A stretch of DNA of 34,849 nt from a virus: IMG/VR virus record IMGVR_UViG_3300038701_001062, positions 1-34,849 of that record; one strand, 5' to 3'. Of this stretch, positions 1 to 31,825 are shown piece after piece. Below the pieces are notes generated by a model, which worked only from the letters and a program-made list of their open reading frames with translations, was not told the DNA's origin and searched no databases. Made by a program: the position numbers and the translations under genes. Each line of letters starts with the position of its first letter. Position 1 is the first letter of the stretch.

Positions 1-675
1 GCGGATCAAACCACACAAGGTTTTAACGCAATCGAGAGCAATGCTGCAGCCAATATGAACGGCCAAGGCACGTCAGGGCAATTTCAAAATATAATTGACA
101 ATGGCGGCTATAACTCAGCCCAGCAAGGCGCTATGAGCCAAATGCAACAAGCAGCGGGCGGTTATCAAAACGACCCAACTTATCAAGCCTATCGTCAGAA
201 TACGCTAAATGACGTTTCAAATAGTGTAAACGAGGCTATGTCTGGCGCGGGTCGTTATGGCAGCGCAGCGCATACGGGCGCATTGACAGACCAATTATCG
301 GCGGCTGGTTCACAAATGGATATGCAGCAGCTTTCAAGACAAGATGCAGCCAATCAGAATTTGTTTAATATGGGGCAGGCGGCTCAAGGTAATCTTGGCA
401 CTGCATATGCGGGCATGGGTCAACCGGCTCAAGACCTTATGCAAGTTGGCGGTGCTTATGAAGACCTGGCAACACGAACTAAAAACGACGAATTGCGTAT
501 TTTCGATGAAGCTCAAAACAAGCCTTGGGAAAATCTTGGTCGCTTGAATGCAGTAGCAACAGGCGCGGGCAATTACGGATCATCAACAACAACAGCACAA
601 GGACCAAGCGCAAATCCGTTTATGCAAGCGGCAGGCGCGGGGCTTTCTTTAGCTGGCTTATTCGGGGGTTTCTAA
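1..675 (+). CDS. Ala/Gln/Gly-rich virion protein, 5' end outside the window
   Basis: The reading frame is open from the first base of the window, so this is the C-terminal 224 residues of a longer protein; the ATG at 55 is internal. Composition is dominated by Ala, Gln, Gly, Asn and Ser with no Cys, and the C-terminus is a short hydrophobic Gly/Ala/Leu stretch. It lies directly upstream of two similarly biased proteins and an ejection-type protein, all on the same strand and nearly abutting. That position matches the internal-head or DNA-ejection block of P22-like phages (gp7/gp20/gp16 region). I do not recognise a catalytic motif, so a role in the ejected core is inference from composition and synteny. 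Confidence 0.7.
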   Translation, partial: ADQTTQGFNAIESNAAANMNGQGTSGQFQNIIDNGGYNSAQQGAMSQMQQAAGGYQNDPTYQAYRQNTLNDVSNSVNEAMSGAGRYGSAAHTGALTDQLSAAGSQMDMQQLSRQDAANQNLFNMGQAAQGNLGTAYAGMGQPAQDLMQVGGAYEDLATRTKNDELRIFDEAQNKPWENLGRLNAVATGAGNYGSSTTTAQGPSANPFMQAAGAGLSLAGLFGGF

Positions 676-925: not shown

Positions 926-1962
926 TGGATAACAAAACTGGCCTACTAGGTAATATTTCAAACGCTTTCGGCGGTCGTCAGGGGTTGCTATCTGCGGGCT
1001 TGCCTATGATGTTTGGCGGTCCACAAGCACAACAACAAGCGCTTATGCAAGGTTTACAGTATGGCGGCACAATGCAAGCTGAAAACCGCAAGACGCAACA
1101 GGCAGAAGCGCAAAAGAACAAAACGCTTGAGTATTTGCAGCAAAGCAATCCAGAACTTGCCGCATTGATGGAAGCGGGCATGTCGGGCAGCGAGGCGCTA
1201 GGACTGGCTTATAAAGCACAACAGCCGCCAAAAGCAGAAAAACCAACGAGCGCTATCCAGAACTATAACTTTGCAGTAGATCAAGGTTTTGATGGTTCGT
1301 TTGTGGATTGGCAAACCGGCCAGAAGCGAGCGGGTGCAACTAACGTGAATGTCAACAATGCAAGTGAAGTCGGTACAATCCCGCAGGGGTTTGAGTTGTT
1401 CACGGACCCAGAAACGGGCGCGCGTTCTATGCGGCCAGTTACAGGTGGCCCAGAAGACCCTACTAAATTCAACGAGAAAAAGGCGGCTAACGAAGCACAA
1501 AAAGCAACGGTAGCACGTCAGGCTATTGCTGACATCAAAGGCAAACTTAGCCAAGGCGGTCTGTTAAATATGCCTGAGGTTGGCGTTGTTGGCTCGCGCC
1601 TTGCTGATATGGGCCTTAACCAAGAGGCTGTTGACGTAAAACGAAAGCTTGAAACACTTCAATCGGTTGTTTCGTTTGATCGCTTGCAGCAGATGCGAGA
1701 AGCAAGTCCAACCGGCGGCGCTTTGGGTGCTGTATCTGAGAGAGAACTTGCATTACTTCAAAGCAGTATGGGTGCATTATCAAATGACATGAGCGAAGAA
1801 GAGCTTACGAAGACACTGGATTTTATTGATGGTGTGATGAGTAAATTTGCAGCATACCCGCAAGGTGCACAAGCAATGCAGCCAGCAGCAACACAAAATG
1901 GAATGCCTGATTTCTCCACTATGTCAGACGAAGAACTAGAGGCTATTGTCAATGGACGTTAA
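925..1962 (+). CDS. Putative DNA-ejection / internal virion protein
   Basis: A 345-residue protein with a Gly/Met/Gln-rich N-terminal 80 residues. A central segment reads like a short substrate-style repeat (QNYNFAVDQGF, residues ~112-122). The largely helical C-terminal half (about 185-300) contains the LNMPEVGVVGSR region followed by a long amphipathic helix. Similar arrangements occur in ejection-block proteins of short-tailed phages of alphaproteobacteria. It starts on the overlapping stop of the upstream gene and its own stop overlaps the next start, consistent with one late mRNA. No enzymatic motif is visible. Assignment rests on synteny with gp20/gp7-type genes and is inference. Confidence 0.6.
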   Translation: MDNKTGLLGNISNAFGGRQGLLSAGLPMMFGGPQAQQQALMQGLQYGGTMQAENRKTQQAEAQKNKTLEYLQQSNPELAALMEAGMSGSEALGLAYKAQQPPKAEKPTSAIQNYNFAVDQGFDGSFVDWQTGQKRAGATNVNVNNASEVGTIPQGFELFTDPETGARSMRPVTGGPEDPTKFNEKKAANEAQKATVARQAIADIKGKLSQGGLLNMPEVGVVGSRLADMGLNQEAVDVKRKLETLQSVVSFDRLQQMREASPTGGALGAVSERELALLQSSMGALSNDMSEEELTKTLDFIDGVMSKFAAYPQGAQAMQPAATQNGMPDFSTMSDEELEAIVNGR

Positions 1963-3406: not shown

Positions 3407-3470
3407 GGACTTTGTGCCAAAGCGTAAATTGAAATTGATTGTCGTTTGCTGGTTCGCGGTTGTCAGTCAT
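3273..3470 (-). CDS. Small two-helix membrane protein, possible superinfection exclusion factor
   Basis: A 65-residue protein starting at 3470, with AGAGG six bases upstream; the start overlaps the stop of the Mnt-like gene, so the two are translationally coupled. A polar N-terminal 20 residues is followed by two hydrophobic segments (about 27-45 and 47-62) separated by a very short turn. Its last 134 bases run antisense through the 3' end of the ejection gene. In P22 the sieA gene, an inner-membrane superinfection exclusion protein, sits between gene 16 and mnt. Position and membrane character match, but this protein is much shorter than SieA, so the role is inference. Confidence 0.6.
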   Translation of the reverse strand: MTDNREPANDNQFQFTLWHKVLIFGGASIAGWVGIFYWNWLTSFGLWIAVPVLVLSILLISKIPE

Positions 3471-3804
3471 CGGAGGCCTCTGAATCCTCTTTATGGCGCT
3501 TTTGCAATACAAACTCGGCAAGAACGTCAGCAATTCCAGATTTGAAAATGGCGTCTTCAAGTTTGTCCCTTAAAATAGCTTCGTCTTCTTTGTTGCCGCC
3601 CGCTCGTTTAGCAGCTGTATCAGCAGGTACTTGTTTATTAAACACATCAGCCGTAAGAGTTCTCTCTAACCTCTGAATTATCTCTGCATTGAGCGACCTG
3701 CCGTTTTCGGCGGCCAGCTTTTTTAATTCATCACGCATTCCGTCAGGGAAACGAAGCATATACTGGTCTAATTGTTGGCTAGGGAATCTGTCTTTTTTAC
3801 TCAT
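3463..3804 (-). CDS. Mnt-like ribbon-helix-helix repressor
   Basis: A 113-residue protein. Residues ~14-50 carry the Arc/Mnt signature: a beta strand (QYMLRFPDG), then MRDELKKLAAENGRSLN, then AEIIQRLE. The NGRS-N-EI pattern is the hallmark of this family. The C-terminal 60 residues are helical and charged, as in Mnt, whose C-terminus tetramerises. Family members bind operators as dimers of dimers, inserting the N-terminal strand into the major groove. The gene diverges from a shorter Arc-like gene across a region with repeated CCTAT...ATAGG sites, which it most likely binds. It is probably the immI maintenance repressor of this phage. Confidence 0.88.
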   Translation of the reverse strand: MSKKDRFPSQQLDQYMLRFPDGMRDELKKLAAENGRSLNAEIIQRLERTLTADVFNKQVPADTAAKRAGGNKEDEAILRDKLEDAIFKSGIADVLAEFVLQKRHKEDSEASDD

Positions 3805-3805
3805 G

Positions 3806-3880
3806 CCTATTAACTAGCGATATTTTTTGCTTGACGCCACCCTATTAACTTGATAGGTATATGCCTATTAACTTGATAGG
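3806..3880. promoter_or_regulatory. Operator repeats between the Mnt-like and Arc-like genes
   Basis: Two identical 17-bp copies, CCTATTAACTTGATAGG, lie at 3841-3857 and 3864-3880, 23 bp apart. Each has inverted ends CCTAT/ATAGG. A third copy at 3806-3822 matches only over its first 10 bases and lies directly against the start codon of the Mnt-like gene. Known P22 Mnt and Arc operators also carry ATAG/CTAT half-sites, so these are likely binding sites of one or both ribbon-helix-helix repressors. Confidence 0.75.
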
Positions 3881-3886
3881 AGTCAA
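3831..3886. promoter_or_regulatory. Divergent promoters of the immI-like region
   Basis: On the minus strand TTGACT (complement of 3881-3886) and CATATA (complement of 3858-3863) are spaced by exactly the 17-bp operator copy, a good sigma70-type layout for the Mnt-like gene. On the plus strand TTGACG at 3831-3836 is a -35 candidate with weak -10 candidates near 3854-3863 for the Arc-like unit. Operators lie inside both promoters, so the repressors would block polymerase directly. Confidence 0.5.
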
Positions 3887-3888
3887 AA

Positions 3889-4062
3889 ATGCATAATAAA
3901 AACTACCCAAGCCAAACGGCTGATAAGTTCATGCTCCGATTGCCGGATGGCTGGAGGGATTTGATTAAAGAACATGCAGCTCGCAATCGTCGTTCAATGA
4001 ATAGTGAAATTGTTGCGCGGTTAGAGCAAGCTTTTGAGCAGGGGCAACCCACCGATGCTTAA
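3889..4062 (+). CDS. Arc-like ribbon-helix-helix repressor
   Basis: A 57-residue protein, close to the 53 residues of P22 Arc. It shows the strand KFMLRLPDG, helix A and the signature NRRSMNSEI followed by the last helix. It starts nine bases after an operator copy and is the first gene of a rightward unit that continues to the terminator at 5949. In P22, Arc represses its own promoter and limits transcription of the downstream ant gene. Here the genes in that downstream position are the RAMP-like pair, so Arc-like control of that pair is the natural inference. It is shorter than the Mnt-like paralogue and lacks its C-terminal extension. Confidence 0.9.
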   Translation: MHNKNYPSQTADKFMLRLPDGWRDLIKEHAARNRRSMNSEIVARLEQAFEQGQPTDA

Positions 4063-4069
4063 AACGAAA

Positions 4070-4101
4070 AACGCCCCCGAAGCTGTAACTTCAAGGGCGT
4101 T
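4070..4101 (+). other. Hairpin just after the Arc-like gene
   Basis: AACGCCC (4070-4076) pairs with GGGCGTT (4095-4101), with a second inner stem GAAG/CTTC (4079-4082 with 4089-4092). On the + strand no U-run follows, so it is a poor intrinsic terminator rightward. Read leftward it is followed by a T-rich tract. It could act as a partial attenuator or mRNA-stabilising element between arc and the genes that follow. Confidence 0.5.
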
Positions 4102-4138
4102 AAGTGAAAAATTCCAATGCAGAAAAGGAAAATATTCA

Positions 4139-4213
4139 ATGAAAAGTATAATTCAATTTAGCCAACAAGGCAACACTCTACCGAATGTAAAATCAAATGG
4201 GGAGTGCGTATAA
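4139..4213 (+). CDS. 24-codon ORF coupled to the RAMP-like gene
   Basis: ATG at 4139 is preceded by AAAGGAAA nine bases upstream. The ORF ends in TAATG, whose ATG is the start of the 218-residue gene. The 24-residue product starts MKSIIQFSQQGN, reminiscent of the opening residues of BRO-N antirepressors such as phage Ant proteins, but it has no domain. It may be a leader peptide that couples translation, or a remnant of an ant gene replaced by the present pair. Both readings are speculative. Confidence 0.4.
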   Translation: MKSIIQFSQQGNTLPNVKSNGECV

Positions 4214-4869
4214 TGCCTGTAAAGAAAACAAATGCAGCTATCGAACTGCCAAAACTCGATATTCGCCTAATGGAAGTAACAGTTGTTGGTGATAGCCCAT
4301 TAATTGTGCATGCTTGGTCAGAGAAATCAAAGCGTGAGATGCTTGATAAACAGTTGAAAGTCGCGAAAGGCGCAAAGGAAGCCAAAGACCCTGTTGCTGA
4401 TTTCAATGCCTCCTTATATCGGCTCGGTGAAGATTATGGCTTTCCGTCTGTCGGATTTAAATCTGCTGCGGTTACTGCTGGTACTTCGGTTGCTGGGCTT
4501 ACAAAAATTGCCGCCCGTCAAGCCTTTCATATTATCGGGCAAGATGTTGATGTAGATGGCGTTTTTGAAGGAACTAGCGCTCGACATAATCTTGTGAAGA
4601 TAGAGGGTGGCGAGCCAGCCATGCGTGAAGACATGGTTCGGGTCGGCATGGGCACCGCAGATATACGGTATCGGGGTGAATTTCGCGACTGGTGGGCAAA
4701 ACTGCTTGTCCGTTATAATGCGAATGTATTGTCGGAAAGCCAAATCTTGAACTTGTTGAATGTAGCAGGTTTTGCGGTTGGCGTTGGTGAGTGGCGACCT
4801 GAAAAAGACGGTTCCTATGGCATGTTTCATGTTGCAACCGAAGCAGAATTAAAGGGGATTGCCGCATGA
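4213..4869 (+). CDS. Phage protein with RAMP/Cas7-like features
   Basis: A 218-residue protein. ATG at 4213 is chosen because GGGGAG sits 8 bases upstream, whereas the GTG at 4204 overlaps that site. A basic N-terminal tail leads into a hydrophobic strand (residues 20-34, EVTVVGDSPLIVHAW). A loop-helix element GFPSVGFKSAAVTAG at 76-90 resembles the segment of RAMP proteins that precedes the first long helix. A second strand-helix half (152-186) is followed by a glycine-rich loop (AVGVGEWRPEKDGSYGMF, 188-205) like the G-loop of Cas7/RAMP proteins. RAMP proteins bind single-stranded RNA with a regular few-nucleotide footprint. The fold is my inference from pattern, not a database match. It overlaps the next gene by four bases, and a G-rich pentamer array follows that gene. 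Confidence 0.7.
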   Translation: MPVKKTNAAIELPKLDIRLMEVTVVGDSPLIVHAWSEKSKREMLDKQLKVAKGAKEAKDPVADFNASLYRLGEDYGFPSVGFKSAAVTAGTSVAGLTKIAARQAFHIIGQDVDVDGVFEGTSARHNLVKIEGGEPAMREDMVRVGMGTADIRYRGEFRDWWAKLLVRYNANVLSESQILNLLNVAGFAVGVGEWRPEKDGSYGMFHVATEAELKGIAA

Positions 4870-5363
4870 ATATTGTAGGGTATGAATTTATTGAGGGTGC
4901 CAGATTTCAGTCTGGCGCTCACAAGGATGCAAATGAAGTTGGTAAACATCTTGAGCTTCTCAAAGAGCAATTCAAAGGTGAGCTTACACCGAATGATATT
5001 CTTGAGGATGCTAAAAATCATAATTCGCCGCTTCATTCATATTTTGAGTGGGATGATGGAAAGGCAGCAGAACAACATCGGCTTCAACAAGCGAGAGGAT
5101 TAATCAGAACAGTTGTTGCCGTGTACAGATCCGATGAAAAAGAGTCTGTTGTGCGACATAGAGCTTATGTCCACATTAAAGAGGGGGAGGCTTCTCATTA
5201 TCGTGAAACTTCACACGCCATGTCTCAGAAGAAAACAAGGGACAATGTGCTGCAAAGTGCTTGGCGAGAACTTCAATCTTGGAAGAAACGTTACGCAGAT
5301 TTAGAAGAGTTTGCTTCTGTTGCAGAGGCAATTGATCAGATAAAAAAACCAGAAATGGTCTGA
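4866..5363 (+). CDS. Conserved-looking partner of the RAMP-like protein
   Basis: A 165-residue soluble protein starting on an ATGA overlap, so it is made with the preceding protein. Residues 20-60 are helical and end in PLHSYFEWDDGKAAEQ (55-70), a block that looks conserved. A strand RTVVAVYR (81-88) and another (98-105) follow, and the C-terminal 50 residues form a charged helix (SAWRELQSWKKRYADLEEF). No catalytic motif or membrane segment is seen. I do not recognise a named family. Tight coupling suggests it works with the RAMP-like protein, perhaps as the small helical subunit of a complex; that is inference. The pentamer array begins 60 bases after its stop. Confidence 0.75.
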   Translation: MNIVGYEFIEGARFQSGAHKDANEVGKHLELLKEQFKGELTPNDILEDAKNHNSPLHSYFEWDDGKAAEQHRLQQARGLIRTVVAVYRSDEKESVVRHRAYVHIKEGEASHYRETSHAMSQKKTRDNVLQSAWRELQSWKKRYADLEEFASVAEAIDQIKKPEMV

Positions 5364-5422
5364 TTTGTCTAGGGTTATGGCGAGAGTTACCTTACTCAAC
5401 CTCGCAATCTTTTTAGATTATT

Positions 5423-5653
5423 GGCAGGCGGGTTCAGGCTAGTTCAGGTGGGTTATGGTATGTTGAGGCAGGCGGGGTGTGGCGTGGCGAGCTACGGCAT
5501 GGTCTGGCAAGGTCGGGCGTGTTGCGTTTCGGCAGGCAAGGAAAGGCACGTTGTGGTGAGACTTGGTTTGGTAAGGCAGGCGAGGCTAGGTTCGGTAAGT
5601 TTAGGTATGGCATGGTAAGGCGTGTTAAGTTTTGGACACGGATGGCTAGGCTA
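5423..5653 (+). repeat. Array of ~47 degenerate GGYNN pentamers
   Basis: From 5423 to 5653 the + strand can be cut into about 47 consecutive units with consensus GG(C/T)NN. Thirty-seven units are exactly 5 nt, including the continuous runs 5481-5530, 5535-5574 and 5579-5653. The other ten are 4 or 6 nt, and the 4-nt units are usually GGCA or GGCG. The first G is nearly invariant, the second strong, the third mostly C or T; the last two vary. The + strand is strongly G-rich and C-poor. It lies in the same transcription direction as the Arc-like unit, after the 165-residue gene and before a perfect hairpin. Because stops are rare in GGYNN text, long open frames cross it, but they look accidental. 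Confidence 0.85.
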
Positions 5654-5666
5654 ACAACCAAAAAAC

Positions 5667-5701
5667 GGCTTCACTCAGTGTTACGAGCACTGAGTGAAGC
5701 C
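5667..5701 (+). other. Perfect 14-bp hairpin closing the pentamer array
   Basis: GGCTTCACTCAGTG (5667-5680) is followed by a 7-nt loop TTACGAG and the exact reverse complement (5688-5701). No U-run follows, so it is not a standard terminator. A 6-bp alternative pairing exists between TAGGCT at 5647-5652 (end of the array) and AGCCTA at 5698-5703. It begins 13 bases after the last pentamer and could be an RNA processing site, a 3' stabiliser or a protein-binding handle. Confidence 0.75.
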
Positions 5702-5729
5702 TAACCAACAATCGAAAGCGAGCTTCGAT

Positions 5730-5921
5730 ATGGCTAATTTAGCATATAAACAACACGAGTCTGTGTATCAACCTGAAACGAAAGAATATTTAATCACTAG
5801 ATTTTGGGATGAAACACAAAACCAACCAAAAGAACATGCGAGACTAATTGAGCGTGGCAAAGCTATTAAGTGTTTTGAGGGCGAAATGCCCATTGGTTTG
5901 TATACACAATTACCAGTCTAA
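5730..5921 (+). CDS. Small hypothetical protein after the array
   Basis: A 63-residue soluble protein if translation starts at the ATG at 5730; a GTG at 5694 is in frame but lies inside the hairpin arm. No strong Shine-Dalgarno sequence is visible. The sequence is Gln/Glu/Tyr-rich with a central KEYLITRFWDE segment and no recognised domain. It is the last gene before the terminator at 5928-5949, so it belongs to the Arc-controlled unit. Confidence 0.5.
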   Translation: MANLAYKQHESVYQPETKEYLITRFWDETQNQPKEHARLIERGKAIKCFEGEMPIGLYTQLPV

Positions 5922-5927
5922 ACTAAG

Positions 5928-5949
5928 GCCCTGCATTGCGGGGCTTTTT
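5928..5949 (+). terminator. Intrinsic terminator of the Arc-controlled unit
   Basis: GCCCTGC (5928-5934), loop ATT, GCGGGGC (5938-5944), then TTTTT. The compact 7-bp stem (one G-U pair) and U-run make a convincing rightward rho-independent terminator, defining the end of a unit that starts at the Arc-like gene. Confidence 0.85.
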
Positions 5950-5978
5950 CTATTGGAGCGAAGAAATGACAAAGTCAT

Positions 5979-6317
5979 CTAATGACGGGTGGGAACCAAT
6001 GGTAACTCTACATGAGGTCCCGACCGAACGGCATAACGCTTTAATTGCTCGGGTGTCGCAGTCCCAAGAAACAATTCTTTTGGTAATTGATCGCGTAATG
6101 CGTAAAGAGCACCAGGGGTCACAGTATTATCCGATGAGCGGGCCACTGACTTTAAAGGAATTGTATACTGTGGTCTCCGCAAACCTAAAGCTTCATTTAT
6201 CTGCCAGTAAACGACGACATAAAGTTCGCCTTGATGCTCTAAAAGGTCAGTTAATGACAAGGCTCTATCGGTCATAAACTCCACGGCTTTTTCGTGTAAC
6301 TTCACATCATCATCCAT
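5979..6317 (-). CDS. Hypothetical protein
   Basis: A 112-residue protein with ATG at 6317, preceded by GGAGG at an ideal 5-base spacing. The N-terminus is acidic (MDDD), followed by helical segments and a hydrophobic strand LYVVVYW (about 31-37). A C-terminal TPEQLKRYAV helix follows. No family recognised. A rightward ORF (ATG 5966 to 6277) overlaps it with its own GGAG. I prefer the leftward frame because its composition and regular hydrophobic pattern look more protein-like. Confidence 0.6.
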   Translation of the reverse strand: MDDDVKLHEKAVEFMTDRALSLTDLLEHQGELYVVVYWQINEALGLRRPQYTIPLKSVARSSDNTVTPGALYALRDQLPKELFLGTATPEQLKRYAVRSGPHVELPLVPTRH

Positions 6318-6401: not shown

Positions 6402-6689
6402 TTATTTATTAGTTCTTGGGTCTGGCATAGACTCTAAACAGAATGCTGTCCCATGGTTTCCCGTAACACCTTTTTGAAAAACGCCAGTAAATTCATTAAC
6501 GCAAAGACCGTGTGCCGCGATAACTGAGGCATAGGCTTCTACCCACTCACATTCTTTGTTGTTGGCGCAATTTGAGGCTTCGAGAAGCCAAATGCTTAAA
6601 AGCCAATCCGTATCTAATTTTACGTCAAGTTCCTTCGCTTGAACAAAGGTTGGGATTAAAAGAAATGCAAAAAGAAGATATTTCAACAT
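6402..6689 (-). CDS. Small secreted protein with four cysteines
   Basis: A 95-residue protein with a clear N-terminal signal peptide: hydrophobic core LLFAFLLIP, with likely cleavage after VQA at residue 18. The mature part has four cysteines (NCANNKEC, GLC and AFC regions) that could form two disulfides in the periplasm. Its start codon overlaps that of the divergent transglycosylase gene by two bases. No family recognised. Placed between immunity and virion genes, it could be a lysogenic conversion or superinfection factor, but there is no direct evidence. Confidence 0.6.
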   Translation of the reverse strand: MLKYLLFAFLLIPTFVQAKELDVKLDTDWLLSIWLLEASNCANNKECEWVEAYASVIAAHGLCVNEFTGVFQKGVTGNHGTAFCLESMPDPRTNK

Positions 6690-8094
6690 GAGTTATACCA
6701 AACAACAAATAGAGCAGATTATCATAGAGGAGGCGCAAAAGGTTGGCGTTGATCCTCAAGCCATGCTGAGTATAGCGCATATCGAAAGCAAGCTAAACCC
6801 TAGCGCTAAAAATCCACGTTCGAGTGCCAGTGGTCTGTTTCAGTTTATAACAAAAACCGGCAATGCATATGGGCTTAAAAATCCGTTTGACCCAAGGCAG
6901 AACGCAAACGCTGGCGCGAGGTTGATGCGAGACAATCAAAGAGCGCTAACAAAAACTCTGGGGCGAAAACCGACAGCAGGCGAGTTGTATCTCGCTCATC
7001 AACAGGGGATTGGCCGAGCTAAACAAGTTCTAGGCAATCCAAACCGCAGGGCACGTGATATTTTGCCAGGGCAGGCTTTTAGTCTCAACATCCCGCGTGG
7101 CAGCGACCCAAATATGAGCGCAAGTGAGTTCAGTAATCTGTGGACAAAGAAGATTGACAATACACCATACAAGGAGTGGGGAGGCAATAGCAGCACCGCA
7201 TTTGCATACAACGAGCAATCACTTCCAAGCCCAAGCAAAGCACCTTTTCCAGATACAAGCAGCGGTCTATTCCAACCAGCCAACCTGTTTGCATCCCCAC
7301 GTGGGCAGGTGCAGAGAGAAAGTCTAGGCCCTGCCAATCCTTCGCCGCTTCCATCCGCACCATCTGGCAATGTCATACGAGCTGGCAGTTTACCTAAAGC
7401 TACGCCACCAACGGAAGCAAACCCAAAAGCAGCATTATTACAAGCAGCTTATCAAAAGCGTAATGTGCCTACACCAGCTCCAAGGCCAGCCGATTTAAGC
7501 AAGTCTTACATTCCAAAGGCTTCGGATTACCAGCACTATCAAATGAACGTGAAGCAGCCTACGTTACCAACCGGCAGCGCAATACCATTACCAGCAGCAA
7601 GACCGGCTAATTTAACGCCTGCGCCGGTTATTGATGGACCAGTAGGTAAACCGCTTGATTTAGTACCAACGCCGCCAACACGCATTCAGCAGGCCAAAAC
7701 AAAGGCAACTAATCACCTTAAAGAGCAATTGCATCCTAAGACGCTCGCGGCACGAGGCGCAGGGGCATTAATCGGTGGTCTACTTCTTGGTCCAATGGGT
7801 GCGAAAGCCGGTCAAATGTTTGGTCCACAAATCGCAAAACAACTGAATAATCGTAACGGCGGTCTATTCGGCATGTTCAACAAACAACAGCCAGACATTT
7901 ACAGATCAGGCAAAACAATGGGTTCAAGTTCCTCTGAATGGGGCAGTGCTCAAAACCAAGGCGCGACTTATACCGCTTCAGATGGTGCGACAATTACCGG
8001 CCGTGGAAACGGCACATATGCAAGAACCAACCCGATTACTGGCGGCACGTCTTATTGGAATGAAGACGGTTCTCGCTCAACTAAAGGATATTAA
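6688..8094 (+). CDS. Virion protein with N-terminal lytic transglycosylase (SLT) domain
   Basis: A 468-residue protein. Residues 1-130 form an SLT-type lysozyme-like domain: helix with the catalytic Glu in SIAHIESKLNP (Glu about 33), then SSASGLFQFI and a later AHQQG motif. This domain cleaves the glycan strands of peptidoglycan. The middle (about 170-330) is Pro/Ala-rich and probably extended. Residues ~350-395 form a Gly/Ala zipper (GAGALIGGLLLG) that could insert in membranes. The C-terminus is Gly/Thr/Ser-rich. Such proteins are carried in the virion and open the cell wall during DNA entry. It is followed directly by the tail fibre gene. Confidence 0.82.
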   Translation: MSYTKQQIEQIIIEEAQKVGVDPQAMLSIAHIESKLNPSAKNPRSSASGLFQFITKTGNAYGLKNPFDPRQNANAGARLMRDNQRALTKTLGRKPTAGELYLAHQQGIGRAKQVLGNPNRRARDILPGQAFSLNIPRGSDPNMSASEFSNLWTKKIDNTPYKEWGGNSSTAFAYNEQSLPSPSKAPFPDTSSGLFQPANLFASPRGQVQRESLGPANPSPLPSAPSGNVIRAGSLPKATPPTEANPKAALLQAAYQKRNVPTPAPRPADLSKSYIPKASDYQHYQMNVKQPTLPTGSAIPLPAARPANLTPAPVIDGPVGKPLDLVPTPPTRIQQAKTKATNHLKEQLHPKTLAARGAGALIGGLLLGPMGAKAGQMFGPQIAKQLNNRNGGLFGMFNKQQPDIYRSGKTMGSSSSEWGSAQNQGATYTASDGATITGRGNGTYARTNPITGGTSYWNEDGSRSTKGY

Positions 8095-17282: not shown

Positions 17283-17504
<222 letters not shown>

Positions 17505-28246: not shown

Positions 28247-28505
28247 ATTAGACGGTTTACTAGAATGTGCAGTACATGGAGTTCACCCATATAATGACCC
28301 AGATATCTTTATCGTAGACGTTAACGAGATATCTTTTGTGCATGGTGCTTGCTCAAATGATCATACTGGTGTGACTGTTAAAACTATGTATGTCCACTTA
28401 AAAAATGGCAAAGTCTTCGAAGTACGGCAAAATGAAGAACAAATATCCGCGCTTCTTGACTGCAAAGTGGCTCCAGAAATAAATCCCGAACAAATAGGGG
28501 GATAA
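28236..28505 (+). CDS. Hypothetical protein
   Basis: An 89-residue protein; ATG at 28236 with AAGGGG seven bases upstream, overlapping the previous gene by 11 bases. It appears to be a small beta-rich domain (MFIRLDGLLECAVHG, IFIVDVNEISFVHG, TVKTMYVHLKNGKVFEV). It is the last gene of the early operon before the late-control region. No family recognised. Confidence 0.6.
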   Translation: MFIRLDGLLECAVHGVHPYNDPDIFIVDVNEISFVHGACSNDHTGVTVKTMYVHLKNGKVFEVRQNEEQISALLDCKVAPEINPEQIGG

Positions 28506-28518
28506 ACAAGAACGTAGC

Positions 28519-28546
28519 TTGACAATTGCAATCCATAAGGTAACAT
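28519..28546 (+). promoter_or_regulatory. Candidate late promoter (pR'-like)
   Basis: TTGACA at 28519-28524 and TAACAT at 28541-28546 are 16 bp apart. Transcription would start near 28553 and run into a terminator some 80-120 bases later. A constitutive promoter followed by a terminator ahead of packaging genes is the layout of lambda pR'-tR'. Confidence 0.65.
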
Positions 28547-28552
28547 GTGGTT

Positions 28553-28673
28553 TAACATGGTGATTTGCGTTTATCGGCGGGTTGCTAAGATTTTTTGAGT
28601 GTAATTGATTGATAAACGCGCTCATGATATGGCAGGGGCCACTTGCAGAAATGTTACGCCCCTGTCTTTTTTT
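28553..28673 (+). ncRNA. Predicted structured leader RNA / small RNA
   Basis: The predicted transcript from 28553 to the U-run at 28673 is about 120 nt. It contains a perfect 9-bp stem GCGTTTATC/GATAAACGC (28567-28575 with 28611-28619) enclosing a 35-nt loop, followed by a terminator. No ORF is convincing here. It may be the terminated leader of late transcription, as with lambda 6S RNA, or a separate regulatory RNA. Confidence 0.5.
28633..28673 (+). terminator. Intrinsic terminator in the late leader
   Basis: CAGGGGC (28633-28639) pairs with GCCCCTG (28658-28664) around an 18-nt loop, and TTTTTTT follows at 28667-28673. It lies between the candidate late promoter and the terminase genes, so late transcription must pass it by antitermination or start elsewhere. 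Confidence 0.75.
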
Positions 28674-28855
28674 GTGGCAGCTCTACTATGTATCTGCATT
28701 AAGTCCCTAACAAGGGCCTCACGGGTTGATCTCCGTGGGTTAGTTATAAACTAGGGCCATTTTCCAAAAGTGCTTTTGTCACTGCGGCAAATCCTATCGG
28801 GTGCAAGGGGTTGGGAGTTCTCGACTGTCTTAATTTTCGAAAGCCCGTTTCAGAA

Positions 28856-28886
28856 GTCGCTAAGGAGAAGTCCAAGGCGGCTTTTT
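28856..28886 (+). terminator. Second weak terminator upstream of late genes
   Basis: GTCGCT (28856-28861) can pair with GGCGGC (28876-28881) with two G-U pairs, followed by TTTTT at 28882-28886. It is weaker than the first, but its position 17 bases before the 57-residue gene suggests tandem terminators in the late leader. Apart from a nested CACGG/CCGTG hairpin near 28719-28736, I see nothing else in 28674-28903. Confidence 0.45.
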
Positions 28887-28903
28887 CTATTTCAGGAGCG
28901 TTC

Positions 28904-29077
28904 ATGCCAGATAAAGACTTAGAAGGCATAACCAACGAAACAGTCCATGAAGTGCTAATAGCTCGCAATAACCTAATGCTTGAAGCTGTCATAGCCGCTT
29001 ACATGGATACAAGTACCCCAGAAGAAACAGCGGCAATACTCGAAGAACACGCAAGGCAGTTAAGAGAATATGGTTGA
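28904..29077 (+). CDS. Small acidic protein before terminase
   Basis: A 57-residue acidic helical protein; ATG at 28904 with AGGAG at ideal spacing is chosen over the TTG at 28811. It includes LEGITNETVHEVLIARNNLML and a final helix TAAILEEHARQLREYG. First gene of the late operon. No family recognised. Confidence 0.6.
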   Translation: MPDKDLEGITNETVHEVLIARNNLMLEAVIAAYMDTSTPEETAAILEEHARQLREYG

Positions 29078-29144: not shown

Positions 29145-29559
29145 TAAGTTAACGCCAAAACAAGAGGCATTTGCTCAAAAGTATGTAGAGCTAGGTAACG
29201 CTTCAGAAGCTTATAGGCAGTCGTTTAACGTCACAAAAGAAAATAGCGAGTGGGTTAAGGTCGAAGCTTCAAAGCTATTAGCATCCCCTAACGTAGCCAT
29301 AACAGTAATTAATTTGCAGGAAATGCATCAGGAACGTCATTCTGTAACCGTTGATAGCCTCACTCAAGAGCTTGAAGAAGCAAGAATGGTTGCAACGGTA
29401 GAAGGCCAAGGCGCAGCTATGACAAGCGCTACAATGGGCAAGGCTAAACTTCATGGCTTGTTGGTCGATAAGAATGAAATCAAAGCAGACCTTAATGTTC
29501 AAGTCTCAAAGATAGAGCATACAATCATTGACCCGAACGCTACAGATACCAACAGCTAG
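29137..29559 (+). CDS. Terminase small subunit
   Basis: A 140-residue protein. LTPKQEAFAQKYVELGNASEAYRQSF (5-30) is the start of the Terminase_2 family, whose N-terminal helix-turn-helix recognises the packaging site. The middle DSLTQELEEARMVA and the C-terminal region assist oligomerisation and contact with the large subunit. The large subunit gene begins inside its 3' end. Length is normal for the family. Confidence 0.9.
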   Translation: MADKLTPKQEAFAQKYVELGNASEAYRQSFNVTKENSEWVKVEASKLLASPNVAITVINLQEMHQERHSVTVDSLTQELEEARMVATVEGQGAAMTSATMGKAKLHGLLVDKNEIKADLNVQVSKIEHTIIDPNATDTNS

Positions 29560-31825
29560 AGTATTCCAGCCATTATTGCAGCCTTCACGGTATAAAGGCG
29601 CACATGGTGGCAGGGGATCGGGCAAGTCACACTTCTTCGCTGAGAACTTAATTAAAGACCATATGCTGCATAGCGGGTTACGATCCGTCTGTATTCGTGA
29701 ACATCAAAAATCACTGAAAGAATCCGCTAAAAAACTAATTGAAGATAAGCTAGCTAAGTTTGGACTTGGTGAGGCTGACGGGTTTAAGGTCTTTAAAGAG
29801 GTTATTGAAACGCCTGGCGATGGAATTATCATCTTCCAAGGCATGAAAGACCACACAGCGGAAAGTATCAAATCACTTGAGGGTTTTGGTCGTGCATGGG
29901 TTGAAGAGGCTCAAACGCTTTCAAAGGATTCATTAAAGCTATTACGCCCGACAATCCGCGCTGAAGGTTCAGAGATTTGGTTCTCATGGAATCCTAGACG
30001 GGAAGAAGACCCCGTAGACAAGTTGCTTAGATCAGACGAAACACCAACAGACGCAATTGTAATAAAGGCTGATTATTCGGATAACCCTTGGCTTCCAAAA
30101 GAATTGGAGCAAGAGCGGTTAGACTGTATGCGCACCGACCCAGATCAATACAATCATATCTGGGAAGGTGATTACGTCAGTGTTATCGATGGCGCTTATT
30201 ACGTCGAGCAATTGAAAGAAGCTGAAAAGCAAGGCCGCATTGGTCGCGTTGCCCGTGATCCGCATATGCAGATTAGAGCAATCTGGGATATTGGCGTTGC
30301 GGATTCAATGACGATTTGGATTGCTCAATACGTCAATAGAGAAATTAGAGTGCTGGACTATTGCGAGGGGCAAGGTCAATCGCTTGGATATTATTTAAAC
30401 TGGTTACGTTCAAACGGTTATGAAAACGCGTTGTGTGTGTTGCCTCATGATGGCGCTAAACGCGATGCTGTATCGGCAACAAGGTTTTCTGACCATATAG
30501 AAGAAGCTGGTTTCGAAACTAAAACAATACCTAATCAGGGCAAAGGCGCGGCAATGAAGCGTGTTGAAGCTGCTCGTAAGCGCTTTCCTATGATCTGGTT
30601 TAACAAAGACACAACAAAAGACGGGCGCAAGGCTCTCGGCTGGTATCACGCGAAGAAAGATGAAGCGCGCGGAACTGATTTAGGCCCAGAGCATGATTGG
30701 AGCAGTCACGGTTGTTTGGTCGGAAGCTCGCTCGTTTCTACTGACCGTGGTCTGTTGCCTATTAAAGATGTTGCGGTTGGTGATTACGTTCATACGCCTG
30801 ATGGGTTAGGTCTTGTTCAATGGTCAGGTGAGGTTAAGCGGACAGCAGAAACCATAACTTTGATGTTATCTGACGGAAATCAGTTGACAATGACCCCTGA
30901 ACATAAGGTCTTCACGACTAAAGGCGTTGTTACTGCGGACACTATCGAGTATGATGATGTAGTTTTTACTGCAAAGGATTTGTCATGCTTAAAGTTAGCG
31001 AACGCAAAGAACATCGGCTTTCGGGCCGCTTTTATAGAGAGTTTCAAGGGGACAAATACTGGTACTGGCCTAAAAGGGGGCTATACGTTAGTCAGAAAGG
31101 CGGTCGTCAGCGTTTATTGCACCGCGAAGCGTTTGGTGTTGGGCATGGCGAGGTCATCCCCATTAATGGAGACTGGGAAGATTTCTCTCCAAACAACTGG
31201 ACAGAGCGACCTAAAAACACAGGGCGAAACATCCCGTCAAAACATGACTGGCAAGAGATTGACGGAGTTCGTTACTACCAAGAGCCTGAGTCAGGATATT
31301 ACTCACGGCGATACCCTTCGATTGAATACATGCACAGAGCGCAATGGTCTAAGCACAACGGGCCGATACCTGAAGGATTTCATATCCACCATATCAACGG
31401 CGATAAGGCAGATAACAGGATCGAAAACCTTGAGCAGATCGGCGCGTCTGAACACTCTAAGCTTCACGCTAAAACAAATATTTGGGTTGGGAGTGAAGAC
31501 AACAAGCGGCAACTTAAAGAGGCTGGTAAACTGGCTAAGTCAGGGCGCAAAAAGTGGAGAGGTCAATGCGTTGAATGTAACGCAGGTTTCGAAACAATTG
31601 CCCCGACAAGAAAATATTGCAGCAAGAGTTGTAGATATAAAGCGGAATACAAACGAAGTCGCAGTTTATGACCTGACGGTCGAAAAACATCATTGTTATT
31701 TTGCGAACAATTTCTTGGTCAGCAATAGTGATGCATTCGGCTTGATGTGCGTTGATTACGAAGAGCCTTTAGAGCCCAAAAAACGAAACAGACCTAAAGC
31801 GGCTCAAGGCGCTTGGATGGGATAG
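29528..31825 (+). CDS. Terminase large subunit interrupted by an intein
   Basis: A 765-residue precursor. It starts at TTG 29528, overlapping the small subunit gene by 32 bases; no better start is visible before the conserved N-terminus. The ATPase has Walker A GGRGSGKS (27-34) and Walker B with FGRAWVEEAQ (Glu126/127). The nuclease part begins around AIWDIGVADS and continues to GPEHDWSSHG. Residues 396-733 form an intein; splicing would join SSHG to SDAFGLM, restoring the last nuclease motif. The mature protein is 427 residues, normal for the family. It pumps DNA into proheads and cuts concatemers. Loss of splicing should abolish the nuclease. Confidence 0.92.
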   Translation: MTRTLQIPTARVFQPLLQPSRYKGAHGGRGSGKSHFFAENLIKDHMLHSGLRSVCIREHQKSLKESAKKLIEDKLAKFGLGEADGFKVFKEVIETPGDGIIIFQGMKDHTAESIKSLEGFGRAWVEEAQTLSKDSLKLLRPTIRAEGSEIWFSWNPRREEDPVDKLLRSDETPTDAIVIKADYSDNPWLPKELEQERLDCMRTDPDQYNHIWEGDYVSVIDGAYYVEQLKEAEKQGRIGRVARDPHMQIRAIWDIGVADSMTIWIAQYVNREIRVLDYCEGQGQSLGYYLNWLRSNGYENALCVLPHDGAKRDAVSATRFSDHIEEAGFETKTIPNQGKGAAMKRVEAARKRFPMIWFNKDTTKDGRKALGWYHAKKDEARGTDLGPEHDWSSHGCLVGSSLVSTDRGLLPIKDVAVGDYVHTPDGLGLVQWSGEVKRTAETITLMLSDGNQLTMTPEHKVFTTKGVVTADTIEYDDVVFTAKDLSCLKLANAKNIGFRAAFIESFKGTNTGTGLKGGYTLVRKAVVSVYCTAKRLVLGMARSSPLMETGKISLQTTGQSDLKTQGETSRQNMTGKRLTEFVTTKSLSQDITHGDTLRLNTCTERNGLSTTGRYLKDFISTISTAIRQITGSKTLSRSARLNTLSFTLKQIFGLGVKTTSGNLKRLVNWLSQGAKSGEVNALNVTQVSKQLPRQENIAARVVDIKRNTNEVAVYDLTVEKHHCYFANNFLVSNSDAFGLMCVDYEEPLEPKKRNRPKAAQGAWMG
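30713..31726 (+). other. Intein in terminase large subunit (338 residues)
   Basis: The intein starts at Cys396 (CLVGSSLVSTDRG), followed by VAVGDYVHTPDG. Block B is LTMTPEHKVFTTKG with the T-x-x-H motif. The C-terminal splicing blocks are VAVYDLTVEKHHCYF and NNFLVSN, ending at Asn733, with Ser as +1 residue. The residue before the final Asn is Ser rather than the usual His, a less common but known variant. No endonuclease motif is in this frame: the central ~200 residues are Thr/Ser/Lys/Leu-rich and look unstructured. An HNH gene lies in a different frame over that part. Confidence 0.88.
30985..31671 (+). CDS. HNH homing endonuclease encoded out of frame within the intein
   Basis: A 228-residue protein in the +2 frame relative to terminase, wholly inside the intein. 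It has its own ribosome site AAAGGA six bases before ATG 30985. N-terminal parts (YWYWPKRGLYVS, RQRLLHREAFG) resemble truncated repeats of the core. The HNH core is IEYMHRAQWSKHNGPIPE, then GFHIHHINGDKADNRIENLE and SEHSKLH, with His135/136, Asn147, His157 and His161. A zinc-ribbon follows (Cys195, Cys198, Cys212, Cys216). It should nick or cut intein-less terminase genes and drive intein spread. Homing endonucleases are normally fused in frame; independent translation from another frame is unusual. Confidence 0.88.
   Translation: MLKVSERKEHRLSGRFYREFQGDKYWYWPKRGLYVSQKGGRQRLLHREAFGVGHGEVIPINGDWEDFSPNNWTERPKNTGRNIPSKHDWQEIDGVRYYQEPESGYYSRRYPSIEYMHRAQWSKHNGPIPEGFHIHHINGDKADNRIENLEQIGASEHSKLHAKTNIWVGSEDNKRQLKEAGKLAKSGRKKWRGQCVECNAGFETIAPTRKYCSKSCRYKAEYKRSRSL

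Follow-up and report, generated by a model that had tools for sequence, protein, structure and literature searches.

The closest described relatives of the locus treated here belong to VIPR, which was first described in April 2026 in a preprint (version 2, June 2026; bioRxiv 2026.04.26.720920, PMC13142463). As presented in the main text of that preprint, VIPR combines a RAMP protein encoded by the phage with an accessory protein and with vrRNAs in which GGY and NN alternate. In the relatives studied experimentally there, the protein was reported to bind the array RNA, the NN pairs to read double-stranded DNA, skipping a single base from one pair to the next, and binding to repress transcription. 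Discrimination between self and non-self is not discussed in the preprint's main text. Here we analysed IMG/VR record IMGVR_UViG_3300038701_001062, positions 1 to 34,849 (the window hereafter, meaning the whole stretch of 34,849 nucleotides), and a locus in it that resembles VIPR. This 34.8-kb virus record represents a temperate P22-like podovirus, with an integrase, a repressor and a P22-type portal, in which a rightward VIPR gene pair and array are flanked by ejection genes on both sides. A first-pass annotation made from the letters alone had described an Arc-controlled unit of a RAMP-like protein, a partner and a pentanucleotide RNA array, and every element that it named is present: the Arc-like gene with putative operator copies, the ATGA-coupled pair, the array, the hairpin, a 63-residue open reading frame (ORF) and a terminator. 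We consider it highly probable that the window carries a complete phage-borne VIPR in the immI slot, with guides aimed at the ejection genes of sister P22-like phages and with its own alleles escaping them.

The gene pair is as follows.

4213..4869, plus strand: vipr, RAMP protein of 218 amino acids (phrog_4652; AlphaFold2 model; matches to CRISPR chains in PDB; homology to SUSP1 Vipr)
4866..5363, plus strand: vap, accessory protein of 165 amino acids (phrog_15946; ATGA overlap with vipr; homologue in 72 of 80 vipr loci)

Both PHROGs families are of unknown function, and Pfam gave no match for either protein. The AlphaFold2 model of the 218-residue protein, built from 41 homologues, had a mean predicted local distance difference test score (pLDDT) of 87 and matched 48 PDB chains at E<=1e-3, all of them from type III (Csm, Cmr, III-D) or type VII CRISPR complexes, with 6xn3_F at the top (E 2.2e-6). 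Template modelling scores were only ~0.5, which points to a common fold in a different build. The protein is thus predicted to have a RAMP (Csm3/Cas7-like) fold, as the first-pass annotation had proposed. For the 165-residue Vap, whose model reached a pLDDT of 93.7, no significant solved relative was found, and the weak matches include many winged-helix DNA-binding proteins.

In Escherichia phage SUSP1, a 195-residue protein (28474-29061) matched the profile of the window family with 48.7 bits, and with 97.3% probability in hhalign, including the GVGxWRP loop. Our assignment of this SUSP1 protein as Vipr is based on its length, its place and the adjoining repeats. Because it matches the family profile, the 218-residue protein of the window is itself a Vipr. 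The SUSP1 accessory protein (vap1), whose loss is reported to weaken repression, gave no match to the window vap family. Since the accessory proteins are unrelated and the guides of the window have no tails between them, the system in the window is not SUSP1's type II. By every general feature that can be tested from sequence, the locus is a member of VIPR. Features of class 1 CRISPR-Cas were not seen: no repeat-spacer array or cas genes lie among the neighbouring ORFs, and no tested protein gave a Pfam Cas match.

Arrays of the same kind recur next to homologues of the gene. Among 80 homologous vipr loci surveyed in IMG/VR, 75 have an above-threshold array on the same strand adjoining vipr, a 76th (L014) has a short array just under threshold, and the remaining four end shortly after vap or vipr; essentially every untruncated locus therefore bears out the expected recurrence. 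These 76 arrays hold 4766 full units, with 1 to 15 guides per array. Arrays also occur in mycobacteriophage Quico, Gordonia phage ODay and a Sulfitobacter plasmid. In Quico (L241) the array is upstream of vipr, and genes annotated Cro and antirepressor adjoin the locus, which is again in an immunity region. In a distant subclade (L070, L074, L076, L077, L080, L081) the array is located between vipr and vap, not after vap.

The array of the window (5423-5651) scored 115 bits, against <=20.8 in 300 dinucleotide shuffles, and its unit consensus is better given as G(G/T)(C/T)NN than as GGYNN. The earlier count of 47 units was exact (42 full units, four of 4 nucleotides and one partial). The repeat is real, but it is not one uniform run: exact GGCA steps of 4 nucleotides at 5423, 5467, 5531 and 5575 split it into four guides of 8, 12, 8 and 14 units. 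Its parts are given below, all on the plus strand, with the steps taken from the array parse.

5423..5426: GGCA step opening guide 1
5427..5466: guide 1, 8 units, NN = GG CA TA CA GG AT AT GA
5467..5470: GGCA step between guides 1 and 2
5471..5530: guide 2, 12 units, NN = GG GT GT GA AC AT CT AA CG GT GC TC
5531..5534: GGCA step between guides 2 and 3
5535..5574: guide 3, 8 units, NN = AA AA AC GT GA TT TT AA
5575..5578: GGCA step between guides 3 and 4
5579..5628: guide 4, first 10 units, NN = GA TA TC AA TA AT AT AA GT AA
5629..5651: degenerate array end, outside the target match

Target matches start at the first unit after a step, and for guides 1-3 they extend right up to the following step. 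Because of this coincidence at both ends, the GGCA steps are read as guide boundaries. The match of guide 4 ends after 10 units, and the last four array units, which mismatch the targets, were rejected as part of the guide. The single A of the step was dropped as a guide letter, since the guide 2 targets mismatch there. Across the 76 family arrays GGCA accounts for 402 of the 505 4-nucleotide steps, with GGC or GGT coming next, and spacing is mostly 9-13 units; in the Sulfitobacter plasmid array the step is GGCG|GTC.

The reading code was examined with 387 guides from the 76 arrays against the relatives' own DNA, with arrays masked and with no use of the preprint's data. Exact 8-unit matches numbered nine at skip 1, against 0, 1, 2 and 1 at skips 0, 2, 3 and 4, and the reversed control gave one at skip 1 and none at other skips. 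Matches with lnE<-4 (natural logarithm of the E value) numbered 24 at skip 1, against 1, 0 and 2 at skips 0, 2 and 3. As codes, we rejected skips of 0, 2, 3 and 4, as well as the reversed order and parallel pairing. The NN dinucleotides appear to specify a DNA target with a 1-nucleotide skip. The first-pass annotation had proposed that the G-rich array RNA is the ligand of the RAMP-like protein, in a ribonucleoprotein of regular period that leaves two bases of each unit free. The ligand and the ribonucleoprotein are supported, and binding of the array RNA by the protein was shown in relatives according to the preprint's main text (PMC13142463); the two free bases are supported too, but they would be more than unbound, forming a programmable code that reads DNA.

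For all four guides of the window the skipped base is the codon wobble base, and all four have the same sense as the coding strand, in codon phase 0. Sense orientation in codon phase 0 is also seen in 9 of the 11 family modules with confident targets. Because of this sense orientation, the guides of the window could pair only with the DNA template strand and not with mRNA. An RNA array beside an RNA-binding protein would also suit an antisense or mRNA-regulating RNA that pairs with rival or own transcripts, but neither the guides of the window nor those nine modules could do so, and relatives bind double-stranded DNA in the account of the preprint (PMC13142463). We regard such pairing as very improbable.

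Guides 1 and 4 were searched separately, and both led to one contig, 3300020182_000153 (G001; 27.3 kb, loci L232 and L233), a sister phage whose portal region is 93.6% identical to the window; the match of guide 3 was then read there. Guides 1, 3 and 4 match this contig at 16/16, 16/16 and 20/20 letters, each in frame and with the same orientation as the gene. The target of guide 1 (L232:8799-) lies in a DNA ejection protein gene (phrog_4287), that of guide 3 (L232:7662-) in the next ejection-type gene, the orthologue of window gene 925-1962, and that of guide 4 in the virion transglycosylase gene; guide 4 also matches at 20/20, in frame, in G003 and G004. At other skips, reversed or in parallel, the best scores of these three guides stay at 11-15 letters. 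Guide 3 alone, being AT-rich, has at least 120 matching stretches in the whole viral collection, and only its match in the sister contig was used for this reason. A match in L092, and the remaining out-of-frame matches that guides 1 and 4 gave, were discarded as chance. In the part of the sister phage examined, no vipr, vap or array was found.

Guide 2 matches at 24/24 in eight records, namely seven viral contigs and one Rickettsiales metagenome-assembled genome (MAG), all in frame and all encoding GVVDTILNRVAS of the PF07486 cell-wall hydrolase domain. The viral scan used the first 20 letters, after which all 24 matched, and the MAG scan used all 24. In sister L237, guide 2 matches at 21/24, in frame and in the same virion gene. 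All four guides seem to aim at one ejection-gene block of the sister phages, with less certainty for guide 2. The reversed 20-letter pattern of guide 2 had 0 matches in the whole viral collection. Such a control, and perfect in-frame gapped matches to sister genes at skip 1 only, weigh heavily against a structural or packaging-type repeat that a RAMP-like protein would bind with no sequence targeting. Strong periodicity, G-richness and constant position would agree with such a repeat, which we nevertheless judge extremely improbable.

Targets of other arrays were also noted. Three of them (L007:1595, L020:6225, L029:6170) have guides against rival vap genes, at three different conserved motifs, VIPR against VIPR. 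One guide of L034 (6233) leads to a DPPY-type DNA methyltransferase motif of another phage (L045:9650), and one of L016 (5370) to a motif in a very long tape-measure-like ORF of another phage (L020:9785).

The genome of the window has its own counterparts of three targets.

76..98, plus strand: own orthologue of the site targeted by guide 1, matching at 13/16 (Y to F, G to N)
1117..1139, plus strand: own orthologue of the site targeted by guide 3, matching at 13/16 (V to L, F to Y, K to Q)
7525..7553, plus strand: own orthologue of the site targeted by guide 4, matching at 15/20 (S to Q, N to H, M to Q)
6688..8094, plus strand: own ejection-type transglycosylase gene (SLT, PF01464), where the orthologues in G001 and L237 have PF07486 instead

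The own sites of guides 1, 3 and 4 are, on this evidence, disabled by amino-acid-changing differences. In gp55, window and sister differ at 63 nucleotides, 52 at wobble and 11 at non-wobble positions, and 3 of these 11 lie inside the 24-nucleotide target, against an expectation of ~0.4. For guide 2 there is no such site in the own genome, since the own gene carries an SLT domain where G001 and L237 have Hydrolase_2. Because the targets are orthologous to own genes, the guides could in principle be relics of the phage's own earlier alleles, left from a decayed self-regulation and not weapons. However, the match is perfect in the rival contigs, whereas the sites of the window differ in ways that alter the protein; the domain targeted by guide 2 does not occur in the genome of the window; and the own vap of L029 avoids its own guide though it encodes the same peptide as the targeted alleles. 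We hold this origin to be decidedly unlikely.

The L029 case deserves description. The peptide encoded by its own vap is identical to that of two targeted alleles, yet the gene scores 15/22 to its own guide against 19/22, and evades it through its codons for Leu, Arg and Ser, which are TTA, AGG and AGC. Swaps at six-fold codons (Leu, Arg, Ser) are the sole kind of silent change that a wobble skip cannot ignore. The codon-usage probability of this synonymous self-recoding is ~0.017, as a product of frequencies, which is suggestive. Across the family, near-matches (>=79% of letters) in genes ~5 kb either side of the own array numbered 23, against 6 and 8 in controls, and those in sense codon phase 0 numbered 13, against 2 and 2.

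We suggest, with somewhat more belief than doubt, that these systems discriminate between kin: guides would be directed against sister alleles of the phage's own gene set, and selection would recode own sites, through amino-acid changes in the window and through synonymous swaps at six-fold Leu, Arg and Ser codons in L029. Linkage between targets and cassette may also guard against replacement by recombination. In a stronger form of this last thought, guides would mark rival alleles of the genes flanking the cassette and punish recombination that would remove VIPR, which would make it a selfish linked element as well as a weapon. The targets in gp55, gp925 and gp6688 do flank the cassette on either side, all within ~5.4 kb of the array, the near-matches of the family are enriched within ~5 kb of the own array, and the three arrays named above target vap of rival VIPR loci. 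However, the family survey covered only ~5 kb on each side in most loci, ejection genes are adjacent and variable for other reasons, and guide 2 also matches unrelated phages perfectly. Protection of the cassette in this strong form is unlikely, although it keeps some weight.

According to our model, which borrows RNA binding and transcriptional repression from the relatives in the preprint's main text, Vipr would coat the array RNA through the GGY triplets, and each guide, lying between two GGCA|GGC steps, would present its NN pairs. These pairs would base-pair with the template strand of double-stranded DNA, skipping one base per codon at the wobble position, and DNA binding would repress transcription. 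Expression in co-infection or lysogeny would then silence the late ejection genes of a rival, whose progeny would be unable to inject, and own alleles would escape through the amino-acid-changing differences at their sites. Sequence gives the code, where each guide begins and ends, what it targets and that the own sites are broken. The role in inter-phage competition, one of several that the first-pass annotation had offered, gains support from guides that match sister-phage ejection genes and from these broken own sites.

Several points weigh against aiming at sister ejection genes with escape of own alleles. Guide 2 has no perfect match in a sister phage (21/24 in L237), and sister phages are known solely from metagenomic contigs. 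The targets are late genes, whereas satellites and lysogeny regulators receive the emphasis in the preprint's main text, and guides of 8 units (16 base pairs) sit below the 9-16 repeats given there. In addition, the own-site scores (13/16, 13/16 and 15/20) are no better than chance maxima, and for this reason the significance of the own sites rests on their position and not on their score.

The leader, genomic slot and borders of the cassette can be described as follows.

3463..3804, minus strand: divergent Arc-like repressor, immI-type, phage backbone (PF03869, E 3.8e-14; orthologue in the VIPR-less sister G002/L234)
3841-3857 and 3864-3880: two copies of CCTATTAACTTGATAGG, likely Arc-type operators (letters read directly; operator role putative)
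3889..4062, plus strand: second Arc-like repressor, immI-type, upstream of VIPR (PF03869, E 1.3e-17)
5372..5422, plus strand: conserved 5' array leader (helix of 5380-5388 with 5398-5405)
5667..5701, minus strand: perfect 14-bp hairpin at the right cassette edge (T-run on the minus strand; z -8.7)
5730..5921, plus strand: 63-residue ORF, phage backbone (in 0 of 80 vipr loci; N-terminus common to the VIPR-less sister L237)
5925-5947: intrinsic terminator

The leader helix is conserved in structure: in 11 homologous leaders 100% of cells are paired and three pairs are changed on both sides, against <=48% paired in slid controls. Rfam gave nothing above threshold on the locus. A second conserved leader type (GCGGAGCCGGATGCCCGTCCGGCTGGCGAGGATCAAGGTAGGGCAGGC) between vap and array replaces the leader of the window in many close relatives (L003, L006, L007, L008, L011, L012, L016, L017, L019, L020, L030, L031, L033, L035).

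The two Arc-like genes face apart, with both copies of CCTATTAACTTGATAGG between them. Arc had been taken as part of the unit, but only 4 of the 80 loci have an Arc homologue close to vipr, and arc genes are also present in the VIPR-less sister. The Arc genes are best placed in the phage backbone, outside VIPR, and Arc control of VIPR is plausible. In the same slot, sister G002 has a gene of the P22 antirepressor type (P22_AR_N, PF10547) together with two Arc-like genes, and sister L237 has an ORF6N-domain gene. Judged by gene order, VIPR appears to stand in the P22 immI slot and to replace the antirepressor gene, and the earlier suggestion that it occupies the place of ant is supported by G002.

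Homology to L237 resumes at window position 5699, and the cassette spans roughly 4.1-5.7 kb in window coordinates. Since the 63-residue ORF accompanies none of the 80 vipr loci and this homology resumes before it, we assign it to the backbone, and its earlier inclusion in the unit fails. The perfect 14-bp hairpin is present as described, but not as part of the rightward unit: it likely resembles a leftward intrinsic terminator of the phage backbone, and the idea that it caps the vrRNA was dropped because its T-run lies on the opposite strand.

Other observations concern the same genome. A run of GGCTCT/GGCTAT hexamers at ~17285-17475 on the minus strand was rejected as a second array, reading as a coding Gly-Ser/Gly-Tyr repeat; it mimics a G-rich array in scans. 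The sister contig has GGTCNGGGNTCA-type repeats near its end (L233:7130-7297, plus strand), at about the same genome position as this run. The terminase gene of the window (29528-31825, plus strand) carries an intein (PF14890), and an HNH endonuclease ORF of 228 codons (PF13392, E 4.5e-17; 30985-31671, plus strand) lies inside this gene in a different frame, so that intein and homing endonuclease appear to overlap out of frame. As a trace of the host, a search for the portal gene that covered the Rickettsiales MAG together with 289 genomes from the same class gave only one distant match, at 35% identity. A DNA-level search of phage records with window positions 3800-6300 gave nothing.

Our results indicate that the locus decodes almost completely, with four guides, three perfect targets in one sister contig and a fourth in a domain borne by sisters. 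It thus offers a compact system in which kin discrimination among phages could readily be tested. Moreover, the 1-nucleotide skip code receives independent support from sequence alone, and the GGCA|GGC steps provide a rule for splitting continuous arrays into guides, with which natural targets may be read at scale across phage genomes. VIPR as a kind is known, and the ejection-gene targets in sisters, the broken own sites, the punctuation and the immI location appear to be new relative to the main text of the preprint.

Compared with known systems, the locus resembles the Csm3/Cas7 backbone RAMPs of class 1 CRISPR in predicted fold and in the proposed periodic RNA binding with disrupted pairing, but it has no cas genes, repeats or spacers, its step is 5 nucleotides instead of 6, and its guides are noncontiguous. 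TIGR-Tas has tandem guide arrays with interspaced guide letters, like the array of the window, but its units are longer, and its protein and code are unrelated to VIPR. With P22 immI (mnt, arc, ant) the locus shares divergent Arc-like repressors and a position after ejection genes, whereas the window has VIPR in the antirepressor's place and sister G002 keeps the P22_AR_N antirepressor. The nearest likeness described in the preprint's main text is to type II VIPR of Escherichia phage SUSP1 and a Pseudomonas fulva prophage, which have a RAMP protein with the GVGxWRP glycine loop and GGY/NN repeat RNA; the 1-nucleotide skip DNA code with the wobble base skipped and use between phages are also shared with SUSP1. 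Type II of SUSP1 has separate vrRNAs with structured, invariable 3' tails, whereas the window has one continuous array with GGCA|GGC steps and no tails between guides; a structured conserved 5' leader is present, and its vap is unrelated to SUSP1 vap1. The targets differ as well, being sister-phage ejection genes in the window and satellites or regulators for the SUSP1 and P. fulva VIPR. The clade of the window may be one of the seven types in the preprint, possibly the staggered-array type.

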